From Armatimonadota bacterium (GTDB lineage: Bacteria > Armatimonadota > Zipacnadia > Zipacnadales > JABUFB01): a DNA stretch of 64,000 bases. Position numbers and translations under genes: made by a program. The stretch is taken from NCBI GenBank assembly GCA_013314775.1, contig JABUFB010000006.1, positions 124,001 to 188,000 of the forward strand. The letters are read 5' to 3'. Below are positions 16,528 through 26,407 of the stretch, piece by piece (positions within the stretch are counted from its first letter, which is position 1; every line of letters starts with the position of its first letter). The notes under the pieces are model-generated. The model had not been told where the DNA came from, ran no database searches, and saw only the letters and a list, made by a program, of their open reading frames with translations.

Positions 16528-18174
16528 CTACATCATGCCGCCCATGCCACCCATGCCACCCATGCCACCCATATCGGGGGATGGTGTCGGCGGCTCTTCC
16601 TTCTCGATCTCTGCGAGAATGCTCTCGGTGGTCAGCACCATGCTGGCGATGCTTGCGGCATTCTCAAGCGCCGAGCGGGTGACCTTCAACGGGTCGGTAA
16701 TCCCGGCCTTGATCATGTCTTCGAACTCGCCGGTGACTGCGTTGAACCCTGTCTTCGCGCCCTTCTTCAATGCCTGGGCGACGATGACCGAACCCTCGAA
16801 GCCGCCGTTCTCGGCGATCATGCGCATCGGCTGCGCCAGGGCGCTGCGGATAATCTCCACACCGATCTTCTCGTCCTCGTCGGTGACTTCCAGCTCATCC
16901 AGCGCCGCCGCCGAATGCAGGAGAGCTGCGCCGCCGCCGGCGATGATACCCTCCTCCACCGCTGCGCGGGTAGCCGACAGCGCGTCCTCGAACCGGTGCT
17001 TCTTCTCCTTCAGTTCCGTCTCTGTGGCTGCGCCGACCTCGATAACCGCAACGCCGCCCGACAGCTTGGCCAGGCGCTCCTCGAGTTTCTCGCGGTCGTA
17101 GTCGGAATCCGTCTCGGCGATCTGTCGGCGAATCTGCTCGATGCGGCCCTTGATGGACGCGGGGCTTCCCGCACCCTCGACGATGGTGGTATCGTCGGCG
17201 GTCACGGTAACGCGGCCCGCCCGGCCGAGCTGATCCAGCCGGATGCTGTCAAGCTTCAGGCCGAGGTCCTCGGTGATGAAGGTCCCGCCAGTGAGGATCG
17301 CGATGTCCTCGAGCATGGCCTTCCGGCGGTCGCCGAAACCGGGGGCTTTGACTGCTACGGCGTTCAGCGCACCGCGCAGCTTGTTCACGACCAGGGTCGC
17401 CAGTGCCTCGCCCTCCACGTCTTCGCAGATGATCAGCAGTGGACGCCCGGCCTGAAGCACCTGCTCAAGCAGCGGGATGATGTCCATCGCGACGCTGATC
17501 TTCTTCTCATACAGGAGGATGTAGGGCTCCTCGAGCACCGCCGAGAGACTTTCGCGGTTGGTCATCATATACGGGGACAGGTAGCCCTTATCAAACTGCA
17601 TCCCCTCGACAAGTTCCAGCCGGTCCTCGATACTCTTGGACTCCTCGACGGTGATGACCCCGTCCTTGCCCACTTCGGTCATCGCGTCGGCAACCATCGC
17701 GCCAATCAGCTCGGAGTTCCCCGCGATCGATGCCACATTGCGCATTTGGTCCGGGGTCTTGACCTCAACGGCCATGCTCCGCATCTTCTCGATAGTCGCG
17801 GCTACTGCCTTGTCCATCCCGCGCTTCACGAACATTGGATTGGCTCCGGCGGCAATGGCCTTCAGGCCCGCCCGGAGCATGGACTGCGCGAGAACCGTGG
17901 CGGTGGTGGTTCCGTCGCCTGCCACGTCGTTGGTCTTCGACGCCACTTCCTTGAGAAGCTGGGCGCCCATGTTCTCGAACCGGTCCTTCAGCTCGATCTC
18001 CTTGGCCACCGTCACACCGTCCTTGGTGATGGTGGGGGACCCGAACTTCTTCTGCACCAGGACATTGCGGCCGGCTGGTCCAAGCGTCACCTTGACCGCA
18101 TCGGCAACGATGTTCGCACCGCGCTCCAGCGCCCGGCGCGCACTCTCGTCGTACAGTATCTCCTTGGGTGGCAT
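16528..18174 (-). CDS. groL: 60-kDa chaperonin GroEL
   Basis: A 548-residue chaperonin that folds proteins in an ATP-driven double ring with GroES. Conserved elements include [20 protein letters not shown], the ATP-site [12 protein letters not shown], and the terminal Gly-Met repeats [10 protein letters not shown]. The length is normal. It lies 85 bp after groES on the same strand and should share the CIRCE-controlled promoter upstream of groES. Confidence 0.98.
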
Positions 18175-18259: not shown

Positions 18260-18562
18260 TTACTCGTCGTCTTCGAGCGTGGCGTAGATCATGTCGGCGT
18301 CGATGATGATGAGTTCCTCACCATCCGACTTGATCTCGGTTCCACCGTACTTCGCGAACATCACGTGGTCGCCTTCCTTCACGTCAGGCGCCACTAGGCT
18401 GCCGTTGTCCAGACGGCGACCTTCTCCCACTGCAACGACGATCCCGAACTGCGGCTTCTTCTTCGCGCTTTCGGGCAAGTAGATCCCGCCCTGGGTGGAC
18501 TCTGCCTCGTCAGGGCGCACAAGAACGCGGTTGCCTAGAACTTTGAGAGCCGTAATGCGCAC
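18260..18562 (-). CDS. groS: 10-kDa co-chaperonin GroES
   Basis: A roughly 95-100 residue GroEL cap protein: LGNRVLVRPDEAE, QGGIYLPESAKKKPQFGIVVAVGEG, the mobile-loop region, and VMFAKYGGTEI. The start is ambiguous. GTG at 18562 overlaps the only Shine-Dalgarno sequence (AGGGAGGTG), so that site cannot serve it. The same site is 5 nt upstream of ATT (18556) and 8 nt upstream of ACG (18553). Alignment with usual GroES N-termini also favours those positions. The coordinates given are the longest frame. A CIRCE element and promoter lie upstream. Confidence 0.95.
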   Translation of the reverse strand: MRITALKVLGNRVLVRPDEAESTQGGIYLPESAKKKPQFGIVVAVGEGRRLDNGSLVAPDVKEGDHVMFAKYGGTEIKSDGEELIIIDADMIYATLEDDE

Positions 18563-18699: not shown

Positions 18700-18726
18700 T
18701 TAGCACTCCCATGCGGCCAGTGCTAA
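18700..18726 (-). promoter_or_regulatory. CIRCE operator (HrcA binding site)
   Basis: TTAGCACTC (18700-18708), 9 nt, then CAGTGCTAA (18718-18726). It matches the CIRCE consensus at 17 of 18 inverted-repeat positions. It lies just upstream of the groES -35 box. HrcA, the repressor that reads CIRCE, is not encoded in the window. Confidence 0.9.
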
Positions 18727-19009: not shown

Positions 19010-21454
19010 TCAGCCCTCCTGCCCCTCCGCTACCACCAGGCGTAGCTTGATGGCGCCCTCCTGAGCATCCACCTGGATGGTGTCGCCTTCGGCAAACTCG
19101 CCCCGCAGGATCGCGCTGGAAATCGGATTCTCCACCTGTTTCTGGATCACCCGCCGCAAGGGTCTCGCACCGTATGCCGGGTCGTACCCCTCGCTCGCCA
19201 GCAGCCGCCTCGCCGCATCCGTCAGCTGCAGCGACATTCCCCTCTGCTCCAGGGCCTTCCTCACCCGCTCCACCATCAGGTCCACGATCTCCAGTATCTC
19301 GGCTTCAGTGAGTGCGTGGAAGACCACGATCTCGTCGATCCGGTTCAGCAACTCCGGCCGGAACACGTCCCGCAGCGCGGCCACCACTTCGTCGCGCATT
19401 TGCTCATAGTGCTCCTGGCGTCTCTCCGCGTCCCAGTCAGGCTGGGGCGGGCTGATAAACTGGCTGCCCACGTTCGAGGTCATGATCAGAACCGTGTTGT
19501 TGAAGTTCACAACACGCCCGGTGTTGTCAGTGAGCCGCCCGTCCTCAAGAATCTGCAACAGTATGTTGAAGACATCCGGGTGCGCCTTCTCAATCTCATC
19601 CAGCAGGATCACCCGGTACGGCCTGCGCCGCACCGCTTCTGTGAGCTGCCCGCCTTCCTCATAGCCCACATACCCCGGGGGCGCGCCGATGAGCCGCGAC
19701 ACTGCGTGCCGCTCCATGTACTCGCTCATGTCGATGCGAACCATGGCATCCTCGTCGTCGAACAGGAACTCGGCAAGCGCCTTGGCAAGCTCGGTCTTCC
19801 CGACCCCGGTCGGCCCCAGGAAGATGAAGGAGCCGATCGGCCGCCGCGGATCGCTCAGACCGGCGCGCGAACGCCGGATCGCTTCGGAGATCGCCACCAC
19901 CGCCTCATCCTGTCCCTTCACCCGGCGATGCAGCCGCTCTTCCATGCGCAGCAGCTTCTGCGCTTCTTCTTCAAACATCCGCGTGACCGGGATACCGGTC
20001 CATTCCGAGACGATCTGCGCAATGTCTTCGGCATCCACCACATCGTCCAGTTGCTCCACCCCGGCCCACTTCTCTTCCGCGACAGGTAGCCGCGCCGTAA
20101 GGTCGTCGATCTGCGCCTTGATCCGGTGTGCTTCCTCATACCGCCCCTGCGCAGCGGCATCCTGGCCCTGTTGGGTGAGTCGCTGGATTTCCTCCCGGAT
20201 CGCTTCGGGCTTCGGTGGCAAGTCGTAGGTCTCGATGCGCAGCTTGCTCGCCGCCTCGTCCACAAGGTCGATGGCCTTGTCCGGCATCTTGCGGTCGGAA
20301 ATGTACCGGTCCGACAGTTGTGCCGCGGCCAGCAGGGCCTCGTCGGATATGCGCACCCCGTGGTGCTCCTCGTACCGCGACCGCAACCCTTCCAGGATCT
20401 TCACCGTGTCCTCGACACTGGGCTCGTCGACGAACACCGGTTGGAACCGTCGCTCCAGCGCCGGGTCCTTTTCGATGTTCTCCCGGTATTCATCCAGCGT
20501 GGTCGCGCCGATGCACCGCATCTCGCCCCTTGCCAGGGCCGGCTTGAGCATATTCGAAGCATCCATCGCGCCTTCGGCAGCCCCGGCGCCAACCACCGTG
20601 TGTATCTCGTCGATGAAGACGATGATCTCGCCCTGCGCGGCGCGGATTTCGTCGATAACGCCCTTCAGCCGCTCCTCAAACTCGCCTCGGTACTTGCTCC
20701 CCGCCACCATGCTCGCCAGGTCCAGCGCAACCAGCTTCCGGTTCTGCAGCATCTCCGGCACGTTGCCGCTGACGATTTCCTGTGCCAGCCCCTCCACCAC
20801 CGCGGTCTTGCCAACCCCCGCGTCCCCGATAAGCACCGGGTTGTTCTTGGTGCGTCGCGACAGCACCTGGATGAGCCGCTTGATCTCCTTCTCGCGCCCG
20901 ATCACCGGGTCCAGCTTGCCCTCTCGCGCCAGGGCCGTCAGGTCCCGCGAGAATCGCTTCAAGGCTTCGTACTTGGACTCGGCGCCCGCGTCTGTCACTG
21001 AGTGGCTCCCCCGCAGGCCCTGCAGGGCCTTGAGGGTAGTCTCGATGGTGACTCCCGCCGAGGTGAGTATTCGCGCTGCCGGGGTCTGCCCGTCCTCGAG
21101 GATCGCCAGAAACAAGTGCTCGGTGGCGATGAACTGGTCGCCAAAACGCTGGCACACTTCCCACGCCTTGTCGAAGATCCGGCTGGTGTGCGGGGTTATG
21201 TAGATCTGCTGGGTGTCTCCGCCGCCCACCTGCACCTGGGGCCGGCTGCCCAGCTCGCGCTCAACCTGGTGCGTCAACCGGTCGACATCCACGCCCTGTT
21301 CCGCGAGAATCCGCGGAACCGTGCCTTTCTCTTGCTCCAGCATCGCCAGCAGGATATGCTCGGCGTCCAGTTGGTTGTGCTTATACCGCTGCAGCAGTTG
21401 CTGGCTGTGTGCAACGACTTCCTTCGCTGCGTTGGTCAATCGCTCGAAATCCAT
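19010..21454 (-). CDS. clpB: AAA+ disaggregase/unfoldase ClpB/ClpC family
   Basis: An 814-residue Hsp100 protein. It has a Clp N-domain with two repeats (about residues 1-145). The first AAA+ module has [15 protein letters not shown] and VIFIDEIH-type Walker B sequence ([10 protein letters not shown]). The middle region is short and contains an [14 protein letters not shown] segment. The second AAA+ module has [16 protein letters not shown] and [13 protein letters not shown]. The short middle domain and UVR-like segment resemble ClpC, while the heat-shock context with dnaK, dnaJ and hspR suggests a ClpB role. No ClpP-loop argument could be made. It is the last large gene of the HspR cluster. 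Confidence 0.93.
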
Positions 21455-21503: not shown

Positions 21504-21746
21504 TCATGGGTCGCTGTTACCGATCGCGTCTTCGTTCTCGCGCAGCAGTGCCGGCGCCTCGTGCGCCCGGTCCTCTGGAACCATCACACGCATCGGAGCA
21601 ATCCTCGCTCCGCTCACGTACGCCCCGAGGGTGAACGTCGGAATGCTGTGCACGGGGATTCCGCTCGCGCGCAGCTTGGCCGCTGCAGGATCCGCGTTCG
21701 TGTCGCCGAAGCCCGGGCTGAAACCAGCCTCCTGTACCCAGCCCAC
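21504..21746 (-). CDS. Small DUF2007-like protein between hspR and clpB
   Basis: From GTG at 21746 the frame gives 80 residues. It contains ADPAAAKLRASGIPVHS followed later by MRVMVPEDRAHEAPALL. This resembles the DUF2007 fold: an 'AeLakalLeaaGIpv' helix, then a strand and 'VpeedaeeAraiL'. DUF2007 proteins are small and of unknown, possibly regulatory, function. An upstream AGGGGAGCAGG lies in the 34-bp gap after hspR, a little far from the GTG. Longer frames reaching 21857 overlap hspR and look non-coding. The call rests on partial similarity and tight cluster position. Confidence 0.55.
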   Translation of the reverse strand: MGWVQEAGFSPGFGDTNADPAAAKLRASGIPVHSIPTFTLGAYVSGARIAPMRVMVPEDRAHEAPALLRENEDAIGNSDP

Positions 21747-21780
21747 CGGCCCGGCCGCTTTTTCCTGCTCCCCTGGGGGC

Positions 21781-22149
21781 TCAGAATTGCCTCGGCTGCT
21801 CCTCAGTCTGAATCTCAACGCGGACTCCACGGCTTGCCGGCAGGCTCTTCGGGCCATGCTCGATCAGATCCCGCAGACGTTCGATCTCCATCTGCTGCTG
21901 CTCGATCTGATCCAGCAGCTTGAGCACGATTTCCACCCCGGCCAGATTCACCCCGAGTTCCTGGGTGAGCCGCTGGATCTGCCCGAGTCGCTCGATATCG
22001 CGTTGGGAGTACAGGCGCACATTGCTCCGGGTGCGCCTGGGGTTCACCAGGCCCAGCCGCTCGTACGTCCGCAAGGTCTGGGGGTGGCACTGAACCAGCC
22101 GCGCGGCCACACTGATGTAGTACACCGGCTCGTCATTGGCGTGCGTCAT
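21781..22149 (-). CDS. hspR: Heat-shock repressor HspR (MerR family)
   Basis: A 122-residue MerR-type regulator. The winged-helix region reads YYISVAARLVQCHPQTLRTYERLGLV, then RLYSQRDIERL, followed by a coiled dimerisation helix (LDQIEQQQMEIERLRDLI). This matches HspR, which represses dnaK operons by binding HAIR elements and uses DnaK as co-repressor in actinobacteria. It lies 26 bp after dnaJ with a clear TGGAGG site. A HAIR-like operator precedes dnaK in this window, so autoregulation of the whole cluster is likely. Confidence 0.93.
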   Translation of the reverse strand: MTHANDEPVYYISVAARLVQCHPQTLRTYERLGLVNPRRTRSNVRLYSQRDIERLGQIQRLTQELGVNLAGVEIVLKLLDQIEQQQMEIERLRDLIEHGPKSLPASRGVRVEIQTEEQPRQF

Positions 22150-22174: not shown

Positions 22175-23293
22175 TCACTTCAAAGTCGTCGGCAGGTCCG
22201 CCCGCGGATCCTCATCCGTCACCCGCTCCAGTTCCTCCAGAAGCTCCCGCTGCTCCTTGCTCAGGCGCCGCGGAGGGACGATGGCCACGCGGACGAACTG
22301 GTCGGCGCGATTGCGGCTTCCAGGTATCTGGGGTCCCTGTCCGCGCAGCCGGAACTTCTGACCGCTCTTGGTCCCGGGTGGGATCTTCAGACTCACCTGG
22401 CCGTCAACCGTGGGCACACTGATCTTGGCACCCAGGGCCGCCTCCGTGAAGGATATCGGGACCTCGACCTCCACATCATCCCCCACGCGTTGGAAGAACG
22501 GGTGTTCCTGCACCTTGATTTGGAGGATCAGGTCGCCATTTGGGCCGCCATTGATGCCGCGGCCACCCTCGCCGGCCAGCCGGATCTTGCTCCCGGTCTT
22601 GACCCCGGGCGGCACCTTCACCTTGATCTGCCGCTCCCGCAGGACCTCACCGCCGCCCCGACATTTCGGGCACTGAGATACGACCATTTCTCCGGTTCCC
22701 TGGCAGTGCGGGCAGGCCCCCGCCATGCCGAAGATCCCGCTGCGCGCGCTCTGCCCCGTGCCGCCACAGGTGGGGCAGGTCTGGGTCTTCCCGCCGACAC
22801 CGCCGCACTCGGGGCAGACGTCCGCGATGCTCAGGTTGAGCTCTTTCTGGGTTCCGCGTACGGCTTCGGCGAAGGTCAGCGTCAGCTCGTGCGCAATGTT
22901 CGCGCCACGTTGCGGCTGGGGCTGCACCCGCGCTCTTTGCCTTCCCGACGACCGCCCGAAATCCCCGAAAATACTGCCGAAAATCTCCTCGAATGTCCCC
23001 GCTCCGAAGTTGGTGTACACAAAGTCCCGGACGTCGCCGCCCTGCCACTGCCCGCTTTGCTGGGCCTGTTGCCAGGCGGTCCCGAACTGATCATACTTCC
23101 TCCGCTTTTCCGGGTCGTTGAGCACCTCGAAGGCCTGGCTGATCTGCTTGTACTTTTCTTCAGCCGCCTTGTCCCCCGGGTTCACGTCGGGGTGATACTT
23201 GCGCGCGAGCTTGCGGTACGCCTTCTTGATTTCATCCGGAGACGCATCTCGCCGCACGCCAAGCAATTCGTAGAAATCTACTGTCGCGTCCAT
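22175..23293 (-). CDS. dnaJ: Chaperone DnaJ
   Basis: A 372-residue type I Hsp40. The J domain (residues 5-70) has the catalytic YHPDVN (HPD). A Gly/Phe region follows ([17 protein letters not shown]). Four zinc-binding CxxCxGxG repeats are present ([32 protein letters not shown]). The C-terminal peptide-binding domains are complete. It delivers clients to DnaK and stimulates its ATPase. It sits between hsp20 and hspR in the cluster. No grpE gene is present in the window. Confidence 0.97.
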
Positions 23294-23335: not shown

Positions 23336-23758
23336 CTACCCGTTCTCGACCCGGATTGGAACCTCCACCGGCCCCTTCGGCCTTGCCTCCAGACGCCCCA
23401 CCTTCACCGTGAGCACGCCCTGTTTCAGACTCGCGGACACCTTCGACACATCCGCATCCGAGGGCAGCGGAATGACCCTCGCGAAGGACCCGGCCTTCCG
23501 CTCTGACCTGAGCAGCCTGCCCACAGGCGGTTGCCTCTTACCCGCCACCCTCAGCACGCCCTCGTCAGCCACCACGCGCACGCTCTCCGCGGTCACTCCG
23601 GGGACGTCGCACCGGACGATATACTCGTCAGCCGTCCGCGTGACGTCGGTCGGCGGCGCGAATGACGGGGCCGCCGGCCGCGACTTGCCTGCCGCGATAG
23701 CGTCCCGGAAAACCCGGTCGAATTGCTCCTGCAATTCCAGCACATCACCGAAGCGCAT
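23336..23758 (-). CDS. Small heat-shock protein Hsp20 (first copy upstream of dnaJ)
   Basis: A 140-residue alpha-crystallin domain protein: PPTDVTRTADEYIVRCDVPGV, FARVIPLPSDADVSKVSASLKQGVLTVKV (the A-x-x-x-n-GVL motif) and a C-terminal VEVPIRV, resembling the IxI/V oligomerisation motif. It holds unfolding proteins for DnaK/ClpB. It lies 42 bp before dnaJ and 52 bp after a second, divergent hsp20 gene. Confidence 0.92.
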   Translation of the reverse strand: MRFGDVLELQEQFDRVFRDAIAAGKSRPAAPSFAPPTDVTRTADEYIVRCDVPGVTAESVRVVADEGVLRVAGKRQPPVGRLLRSERKAGSFARVIPLPSDADVSKVSASLKQGVLTVKVGRLEARPKGPVEVPIRVENG

Positions 23759-23810: not shown

Positions 23811-24191
23811 TCACCGCCGCGCCACCACTGTCAGCACGCCCGCCTCCAGGGCCGCATTGACCTCTGAAGGCTCGAAGGCCAGGCTGAAGGACCTGGAAAA
23901 CCTCCCCGCCGGCCGCTCAGCCACCAGAAACTGCTCGCCCTCACCGTCGCGTTCCCGCATGCCGTCAATCGTCAACACGTTGCCGTCGAGCACCACATTG
24001 ATGCTCTCCCGGGTCATTCCGCAGACCTCAAGCTCCACCACGATGCCATCTTCGGTGGCGCGGATGTCCGCTGGCGGCGTCCACCGCCGGCCAACCGGAG
24101 CAGGCTGGACCGGGAAGGCCTCGTCCAGTAGGGATCGCAGCCGAACTCGCAGCCGGGCAATGTCCTCATATCGCCGATCCAGATAGGCCAC
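23811..24191 (-). CDS. Small heat-shock protein Hsp20 (second copy)
   Basis: A 126-residue alpha-crystallin domain protein: PADIRATEDGIVVELEVCGM, RFSRSFSLAFEPSEVNAALEAGVLTVVARR. It is only modestly similar to its neighbour and lacks a C-terminal IxI tail, so the two may form hetero-oligomers or differ in assembly. It lies 189 bp after dnaK; the gap holds a strong hairpin. Confidence 0.9.
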   Translation of the reverse strand: MAYLDRRYEDIARLRVRLRSLLDEAFPVQPAPVGRRWTPPADIRATEDGIVVELEVCGMTRESINVVLDGNVLTIDGMRERDGEGEQFLVAERPAGRFSRSFSLAFEPSEVNAALEAGVLTVVARR

Positions 24192-24380: not shown

Positions 24381-26249
24381 CTACTTGTCTTCCGCCTCGA
24401 ACTCGCCCTCGATCACGTCGTCACCCACTGAAGACGCATGAGGCGCCCCTGTTGCCGCAGGTCCCGGCTCAGGCGCGGGTCCGGCGCTGCTGGCCTGCTC
24501 ATACATCCGCTGGGACACTTGCGAGAACTCCTGGTTCACCGCATCGATAGCCGCCCGGATCGCCGCCGCGTCCTCACCTTTCACACTCTCGCGCAGGGCC
24601 TCGATCTTCTCCTTGATCGCGGTCCGGTCGGACTCGGCAACCTTGTCCCCAAGCTCATTCAGCGTCTTCTCCAGCTGGTAGGCAACCTGGTCGCCCTGGT
24701 TGCGGGCGTCTGCCAGTTCTTTGAACTTCTTGTCCTCAGCCGCGTGGGCCTCGGCCTCCTGCACCATCCTCTTCACTTCTTCGTCTGACAGCTGGCCCGA
24801 GCCGGTAATGGTGATCGACTGCTGCTTGCCTGTGGCCTTGTCCTGGGCCGACACGTTCAGGATGCCGTTGGCGTCGATGTCGAAGGTGACCTCGATCTTC
24901 GGCATGCCCCGCGGAGCGGGTGGGATGCCCGTGAGGTGGAACCGACCCAGAGACTTGTTCTGGCTGGCCCGCGGACGCTCGCCTTGCAGCACGTGCACCT
25001 CAACCGTGGTCTGCATGTCGCTTGCGGTACTGTAGGTGCGGGTCTCCCGGGTCGGAATATTGGTGTTGCGCTGGATCACCGGGTCCATGACGTCGCCCAG
25101 CGTCTCCACTCCCAGCGTCAGCGGGGTAACGTCCATCAGAACGATGTCCTGGGTCTCGTCACCCGAAAGCACTGCCGCCTGGATCGCAGCGCCAACCGCC
25201 ACAACCTCGTCCGGATTGATGCCCTTCTTCGGCTCCTTTCCGGTGAGCTTGCGGACCATCTCCTGCACCATCGGGATGCGGGTCGATCCGCCCACGAGAA
25301 TGACCTCATCCACCTCGCCGTACTTCAAGCCCGCTTCCTTCATGGCGTCCTCAACCGACACCTGGGTCTTCTGCACCAGGTCGCCGATCAACTCCTCGAG
25401 CTTCGCCCGAGTCAGGGTCATCTCCAGGTGCTTCGGGCCCTCACCATCCACAGAAGTGATGAAGGGCAGGCTGATGGAGGTGGTCACCTGCGAGGACAAC
25501 TCGCACTTGGCCTTCTCCGCCGCTTCCTTCAGCCGCTGGAGCGCCTGCCGGTCCTTGCGCAGGTCAACGCCGTTCTCCTTCTTGAACTCCTCCGCCACGT
25601 AATCGATGATCCGCTGGTCGAAATCATCCCCGCCCAGGTGGGTGTCCCCCGACGTGGCAAGCACCTGGTACGCATCGCGCTCATCAGTGCCAACTTCGAT
25701 GTCCAGGATTGAGACGTCGAAAGTCCCGCCACCCAGGTCATAGACCATAATCGTGGCTTCCTTCTTCTCCGTGGTCTTCCAGCCGTATGCCAACGCCGCC
25801 GCCGTCGGCTCGTTGATGATGCGCAGTACTTCGAGCCCGGCGATCTCCCCCGCTTGTTTGGTGGCGGTGCGCTGAGTATCGTTGAAATATGCGGGCACCG
25901 TAATGACCGCTTGCTTTACCGGCTCGCCCAGGTACGCCTCGGCGTCTGCCTTGATCTTGGACAGGATCATCGCCGAAATCTGCTCGGGCGTATAATCCTT
26001 GCCGTCAATCGTGGTCGTGTGACGGGTGCCCATCACGCGCTTGATCGAGCTGATGGTGCGCTCCGGGTTGAGGATCGCCTGACGCTTGGCCGTCTGGCCA
26101 ACAAGGCGCTCCCCGGTCTTCGAGAACGAAACCACCGACGGGGTGGTGCGGCCGCCATCGGAGTTCACGATGACAGTGGGCTCCCCCGCTTCCACAACCG
26201 CGACACAGGAGTTCGTCGTGCCTAGGTCAATTCCCACCGCTTTTGCCAT
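24381..26249 (-). CDS. dnaK: Chaperone DnaK (Hsp70)
   Basis: A 622-residue Hsp70. The N-terminal ATPase has [27 protein letters not shown] and [12 protein letters not shown]. The substrate-binding domain includes the linker [16 protein letters not shown]. The C-terminal lid ends in an acidic tail ([12 protein letters not shown]). ATG at 26249 is chosen because it gives the standard [12 protein letters not shown] start and has GAAAGGTG upstream; an upstream ATG adds 16 unrelated residues. It is the first gene of the HspR cluster, behind the consensus promoter at 26363-26391 with a leader of about 107 nt. Confidence 0.98.
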
Positions 26250-26362
26250 GGATGAACACACCTTTCCGGACTGACAGAAAGTGAGGGCACGCGCCACAGC
26301 GATACTTGGTCGCGATGCCCGGCGTCAGGCGAGTCAACGCTCGCTCCATATCATGCCCGGAT

Positions 26363-26391
26363 TATAAATGTTGAGTGTATTACTGTCAAGG
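26363..26391 (-). promoter_or_regulatory. Consensus sigma-70 promoter of dnaK
   Basis: On the minus strand the -35 is TTGACA (26391-26386) and the -10 is TATAAT (26368-26363), exactly 17 bp apart. Both boxes are perfect consensus. The HAIR-like operator overlaps the -35 and spacer. Confidence 0.9.
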
Positions 26392-26392
26392 T
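26372..26392 (-). promoter_or_regulatory. HAIR-like operator (HspR binding site)
   Basis: On the plus strand GTTGAGT (26372-26378), 7 nt, then TGTCAAG (26386-26392). This matches the HAIR consensus CTTGAGT-N7-ACTCAAG at 11 of 14 arm positions. It occludes the -35 and spacer of the dnaK promoter, which fits repression by the HspR encoded in the same cluster. Confidence 0.8.
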
Positions 26393-26407
26393 TATTGATA
26401 AGGCTTT

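Follow-up and report, generated by a model that had tools for sequence, protein, structure and literature searches.

In the stretch of Armatimonadota DNA analysed here, a window of 64 kb, the region in front of dnaK is very probably a combined promoter and HspR operator from which a self-regulating chaperone operon is transcribed: dnaK-hsp20-hsp20-dnaJ-hspR, probably together with clpB. HspR, its HAIR operator and repression at the promoter are already known; the instructive detail is the fusion of promoter and operator, in which one arm of the inverted repeat is common to the -35 box. With this operon, the HspR/HAIR heat-shock circuit reaches a lineage that has been little studied.

The dnaK promoter and its chaperone operon

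The minus strand from 26390 to 26361 reads CTTGACAGTAATACACTCAACATTTATAAT. It holds an exact TTGACA-N17-TATAAT (minus strand, 26389 to 26361) about 105 nt 5' of the dnaK ATG at 26249, with the -35 box at 26384-26389 and the -10 box at 26361-26366. The transcription start predicted from promoter geometry is 26354, 7 nt past the -10 box, which would give a leader of about 105 nt. This is the single TTGACA-N16-18-TATAAT match in the window (the shuffle mean is 0.01, with one shuffle in 100 containing a match), and the whole 6.12-Mb genome has eight exact TTGACA-N17-TATAAT matches against none for the reversed-pattern control. The exact consensus promoter claimed for dnaK in the original prediction is thereby confirmed above chance. 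Another of the eight exact promoters (L259:1501-1620; contig 5, 209046) lies directly 5' of a tRNA gene.

The inverted repeat CTTGACA-N7-ACTCAAC (minus strand, 26390 to 26370; spacer GTAATAC) overlaps the -35 box, which is identical to positions 2-7 of its left arm. On the plus strand its arms are, as had been claimed, GTTGAGT (26370-26376) and TGTCAAG (26384-26390), two inverted 7-bp arms with the 7-base gap of HAIR. This is the core of the predicted HspR site. It agrees with the Streptomyces consensus CTTGAGT-N7-ACTCAAG at 11 of 14 positions, a moderate match by itself, and the left arm departs from that consensus by CA for GT, the same way as in the relatives, across which the operator is conserved.

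Within the 158-bp intergenic region, 25 of 5000 dinucleotide shuffles reach a match of 11/14. Counting over whole genomes was less telling: HAIR with up to three mismatches occurs less often in the own genome (151 places) than its reversed control (306), and a HAIR-type pattern run over 61 genomes gave 44 places in 32 genomes, again fewer than its control. When the pattern is refined on the relatives, the dnaK site is its sole perfect match in the own genome; with one mismatch allowed there are 15 + 21 matches, fewer than the 38 + 40 of the control. Since neither the own genome nor the 61 genomes yield more matches than the reversed control, we dropped such counting as proof and compared orthologous promoters instead. 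A HAIR matrix was built from 41 relatives, none of them of the own genus, on sites anchored by a score of which CTTGACA is a part. It assigns 35.0 bits to 26370-26390, 9.4 bits to the complement of the same stretch and 6.5 bits to the next independent site in the 64 kb. At the level of sequence, then, it is the comparison with relatives, and not the match in a single genome, that confirms the dnaK composite as real and above chance.

All genes of the operon lie on the minus strand. dnaK (24381-26249; 622 aa from the ATG; NF001413, 907.7 bits, cut-off 648) is followed by two hsp20 genes (23811-24191 and 23336-23758; PF00011, 55.7 and 67.2 bits, cut-off 20.8), by dnaJ (22175-23293; TIGR02349, 398 bits, cut-off 377.2) and by hspR (21781-22149), which encodes a MerR-family repressor of 122 aa (NF047375, 117.2 bits, cut-off 105) with a MerR-type helix-turn-helix (PF13411, MerR_1, 60.4 bits versus 21.6). 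A clpB-type disaggregase gene (19010-21454) is likely the last member; TIGR03346 is its best model, at 1162.7 bits and below the cut-off of 1232.1, and the protein has Clp_N and ClpB_D2-small domains. No separate clpB promoter could be made out by eye in the stretch from hspR to clpB. The repressor is thus encoded inside the chaperone operon that it would control: the original prediction placed it five genes downstream, and it is indeed in the same operon, as the fifth gene, that is, four genes after dnaK. With the HspR equivalog model over its cut-off, and with the conservation described below, the expected combination of HAIR-like operator, consensus promoter and HspR in one operon is well backed. 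An alignment of 12 HspR sequences, own included, has 33 invariant columns. A short ORF (21504-21857) lies between hspR and clpB, overlapping the end of hspR; by eye its product resembled a DUF2007 protein, but Pfam gave 0 families.

Conservation, the shared arm and the flanking half-sites

The relatives compared are Armatimonadota ("Candidatus Zipacnadia"/WS1), and the best matches of a scan with the HspR alignment come from MAGs of Candidatus Zipacnadia, WS1 and Armatimonadetes. Within Armatimonadota, Zipacnadia has the rank of a class according to the description cited (PMC10290634). Of 61 genomes searched, 50 have dnaK (53 matches); the comparison used 50 upstream regions from 48 genomes, the own genome included and G051, G009 and the second G049 copy left out. 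The promoter-operator composite is present 5' of dnaK in 43 of the 50 regions. Among the other seven, three are cut by contig ends (G007, G013, G029), one is shifted (G049) and three lack the composite (G059, the second dnaK of G057, and G053); a 44th case, outside the 50, precedes the dnaK of G047, with CATAAT as its -10 box. The spacing is 17 in 41 of the 43 composites, and the -10 box is exactly TATAAT in 22. TTGACA occurs in 43 of 43, a figure that is partly built in because the composites were picked with an anchor score that includes CTTGACA. When the neutral Streptomyces consensus is used, the best site contains TTGACA in 40 of the 50 regions, 39 of them also with a -10 box of at least 4/6; the composite is present yet not top-ranked in G021, G010 and G044. 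In a set of named records, some of whose genomes overlap the 61, a degenerate motif finds a site of at least 12/14 at 15 of 16 loci with a dnaK start, and none at the remaining one (L156). Composites outside Armatimonadota were found at three Chloroflexota loci, before a lon-like gene, before dnaK and, in a dnaJ-hspR locus, before the dnaJ-type gene, and at one Deferribacteraceae locus before hsp20 (all named by eye). Most of the other non-Armatimonadota HspR loci scanned have no site of at least 13/14, or have differently placed ones (Campylobacterota).

The scan for other HAIR sites that the original prediction had called for was only partly rewarding: its counts are not above the reversed control, but it yielded candidates, besides the dnaK operon, before an hsp20 gene (contig 3), at hsp20-lon (contig 14) and before a gene for an HtrA-like protease (contig 1). 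These further members were chosen from many pattern matches by their genes: among the matches whose genes were inspected, three of seven in the own genome precede heat-shock-type genes, and five of ten in the relatives precede hsp20, dnaK, dnaJ or an HtrA-like gene, while the rest do not. The contig 3 hsp20 has the same composite in its orthologues in all four own-family genomes. In the lineage as a whole HAIR is conserved at heat-shock promoters, namely at 43/50 dnaK, 8/18 hsp20 and 4/30 lon loci; seven of the eight hsp20 composites are within 200 bp of the match and one (G045) is 665 bp upstream. The four lon loci are those of the own family, scoring 14, 14, 14 and 12, and five others reach 12 away from a recognisable promoter. 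On contig 2 (L006:1450-1530; 82935) there is also a promoter-like stretch, TTGACT-N17-TATTAT, with HAIR-like repeats CTTGAGTATTATGAACCTAAG; it has no obvious gene on the same strand for about 850 bp and no Rfam match.

Across these promoters the left arm varies with the position of the operator. Where the operator coincides with the -35 box the arm is TTGACA, and where it lies elsewhere the arm is usually TTGAG(T/C). The HAIR-like site at hsp20-lon overlaps the -10 box in the same four own-family genomes, its left arm being CTTGAGC in three and CTTTAGC in one. The HtrA-like genes of both genomes examined from the genus have HAIR with a TTGAG arm just upstream, CTTGAGC in the own genome and CTTGAGT, which makes a perfect HAIR, in the genus mate G001. 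At the dnaK of G049, where a promoter recognised by eye (TTGACT-N17-TATATT) is shifted by 5 bp, the site is CTTGAGT-N7-ACTCATA. One hsp20 site of G049 goes the other way, with a TTGACA arm and no -10 box at 17 bp; this counter-case and the small number of cases make the rule a tendency, not a law. The pattern suggests that the -35 arm is held at TTGACA, and not at the HAIR-optimal TTGAGT, so that promoter strength is kept and operator symmetry pays for it. A broader reading is about as likely as not: that in Armatimonadota and a few Chloroflexota and Deferribacteraceae loci the operator arm became a consensus -35 box where the two coincide and tends to stay TTGAG elsewhere, a trade-off of general kind by which a promoter of the greatest possible strength and the site of its own repressor are made one, and that phased half-sites offset the weakened arm. 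The promoters compared here, some with the operator on the -35 box and some with it shifted, form a natural series for testing the evolution of operators that also serve polymerase.

The best of these half-sites lies upstream. A right half-site, TATCAAT (minus strand, 26394-26400), is a candidate low-affinity HspR site 24 bp 5' of the core right arm. Taking one sequence from each of 26 genera, the right half-motif 24 bp upstream of the core has a z of 8.9, against 5.0 for the right half 23 bp downstream and 3.1 for the left half at -23. Registers inside the promoter reach similar values (+8, z 5.1; -15, z 4.7; +10, z 4.7), so that the -24 peak alone is clearly distinct and the +23 half is weak evidence. 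T.AA is found at the upstream half-site in 23 of the 43 composites; in the own genome the upstream TATCAAT is present and the downstream half-site is poor. It is possible, if rather unlikely, that the TCAA/TAAA conserved at -24 serves the polymerase alpha subunit as an UP element and is not a second HspR half-site. It is A-rich and stands at about promoter positions -45 to -39, which we take to be the location of an UP element, and its covariation with the core arm, significant by species (p 0.04), is lost by genus (8,4 / 2,2; p 0.60), for which reason we do not use covariation as evidence. Against this, the sequence fits an HspR half-site best at one register, -24, two relatives have fuller HAIR matches upstream (10/14 in G043 and 12/14 in G044), and beside the left half at -23 there is the right half at +23, weak as it is, where no UP element would be expected. 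Our preferred reading of the upstream element is a candidate second HspR half-site.

Other routes of heat-shock control

The idea of a purely repressor-based heat-shock switch is plausible at the dnaK promoter, because no homologue of sigma-32 (RpoH) passes the cut-off: TIGR02392 is over it in none of the 61 genomes, all of which give weaker matches (other sigma factors), and in two of 14 control genomes. As far as its sequence goes, the promoter fits a housekeeping sigma factor combined with a repressor. For the cell as a whole the idea has only partial support, since the genome also encodes an HrcA/CIRCE system, whose repressor takes a part of the task, and a SigB/SigF-type sigma factor.

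HrcA is encoded in the own genome (TIGR00331, 251.2 bits versus 197.2) and in 56 of the 61 genomes. The own genome has three CIRCE sites, of which two precede groESL. The one in the window (minus strand, 18700-18726; contig 6, 142700-142726), with one mismatch, is 5' of groES (18260-18562) and groEL (16528-18174), minus-strand ORFs named by eye, and lies next to the dnaK operon, so that within the window the HspR branch and the HrcA branch adjoin. At dnaK itself there is no CIRCE with up to two mismatches. The CIRCE in the window is apparently 5' of the likely -35 box (TTGCAT-N17-TATGAT, by eye) and not after the start, and one of its arms is changed; a CIRCE in G001 has the same change. The second groESL (by eye; L139, contig 8, 944000-946500) has TTGACA-N16-TATAAT with CIRCE after the -10 box. 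The third CIRCE (L140:144-170, contig 31) is just 5' of a DUF34/NIF3 gene (PF01784), a seemingly unusual HrcA target.

The sigma factor of the SigB/SigF/SigG family is over its cut-off (273.7 versus 234.35 bits). Beside it are an RsbW-like ORF (122.9 bits, under the cut-off of 145) and an ORF for an RsbV-like anti-sigma-factor antagonist (80.2 versus 53.45), and the whole (L144:1002-2637, contig 9) is likely a partner-switching stress module; a stress sigma factor could therefore act elsewhere. That such a sigma factor, or a leader acting as an RNA thermometer, provides the main heat control of dnaK while HspR only modulates it is very unlikely. Beyond the stress module, what speaks for it is that the own leader folds somewhat better than its shuffles (z -1.61; 9/200 shuffles as good) and that its ribosome-binding stretch (the last 18 nt) is paired to 0.74, against 0.49 in shuffled leaders (z +1.98). 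But inspection by eye revealed no second promoter in the 158 bp 5' of dnaK, and the pairing is not shared, with a z of 0.08 in the genus mate and a mean of -0.09 over 41 leaders. We rejected the thermometer as a lineage-wide feature of dnaK leaders on that mean; the own species alone may have one.

Many relatives have a compact hairpin in the first 55 nt or so of the predicted transcript (L056-L105), unconserved in sequence. The mean z of 42 leaders is -1.14, whereas the 42 regions upstream average -0.33 and the 25 downstream -0.49; z is below -1.5 in 14/42 leaders against 4/42 upstream and 6/25 downstream regions. It is absent in the own genome (z 0.2), and the evidence for a stable 5' hairpin in the relatives' dnaK leaders is suggestive only.

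It is a little less probable still that the site is real and read mainly by a MerR-type protein other than the operon's HspR. The genome does have two more MerR-like stretches, 36 and 41% identical to HspR, which score 61-64 bits with the HspR model, whose cut-off is 105, though with only 70-74 aa scored this is not a fair test of whole proteins; HspR, for its part, is encoded in 54 of the 61 genomes and within the dnaK operon itself. The slimmest chance goes to the repeat being a by-product, with TTGACA just a -35 box and the right arm due to chance or spacer preference: five of the seven left-arm bases are indeed already given by C plus the TTGA of the -35 box, and 11/14 HAIR matches are common genome-wide, but in the relatives the right arm, (R)CT(C/A)AA(G/C), ranks with the best-conserved columns once the promoter boxes are set aside, that of dnaK is the best among 317 TTGACA-like sites of the window by about 10 bits, one as good appears in 62 of 20000 spacer permutations, and it is missing (by eye) from six of the eight exact consensus promoters of the own genome as well as from the second groESL promoter.

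The proposed switch and known HspR systems

With HspR as the reader of this site, we infer the following switch. An HspR dimer would sit on the predicted site at 26370-26390. Since the left arm of this site also serves as the -35 box, the dimer would keep housekeeping sigma-70 RNA polymerase off a near-maximal promoter. The weaker half-site 24 bp upstream, and perhaps another downstream, would probably take up further dimers cooperatively. Upon heat or protein damage HspR would be released, probably through titration of DnaK, a feedback on HspR that has been reported in Streptomyces. The promoter could then fire at full strength, and newly made DnaK and HspR would close the loop.

In the portions of the literature that our search covered, HspR together with Armatimonad- appears in a single paper, which mentions each once, and Zipacnad- only in the class description. 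The closest comparison is with Streptomyces coelicolor, where, in the accounts cited, HspR has the operator TTGAGY-N7-ACTCAA, targets dnaK, clpB and lon, and has several sites at the dnaK promoter (PMC2687793, PMC6102357). Both systems pair HspR with the dnaK operon as a target, here a predicted one. They differ in that here the left arm is TTGACA, a consensus -35 box (the Streptomyces side being taken from its description), that clpB closes the dnaK operon and the genes from dnaK to hspR include no recognisable grpE, and that there is one strong core site with weak flanks.

In this last respect the flanking half-sites resemble the extended operators described, in the excerpts cited, for Campylobacter jejuni, with a high-affinity HAIR and low-affinity flanking sites, and for Helicobacter pylori, with one HAIR and flanks bound cooperatively, the determinants of which are called unknown there (PMC7464140, PMC6102357). 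Unlike in that description of H. pylori, the flanking half-site here recurs at a fixed spacing. Two repressors, HspR and HrcA, with HAIR and CIRCE, are common to our genome and to both species (PMC7464140, PMC6102357), but according to these excerpts HspR and HrcA share promoters there, whereas here dnaK has no CIRCE, and the window has no site besides dnaK that exceeds 6.5 bits with the HAIR matrix. In its membership, the candidate regulon is similar to those of Streptomyces and of Deinococcus radiodurans, with dnaK, clpB and lon in common and, for Deinococcus, hsp20 as well, the HspR regulon of D. radiodurans being given in the part of the source cited as hsp20, dnaK, dnaJ, lonB and clpB (PMC2687793).
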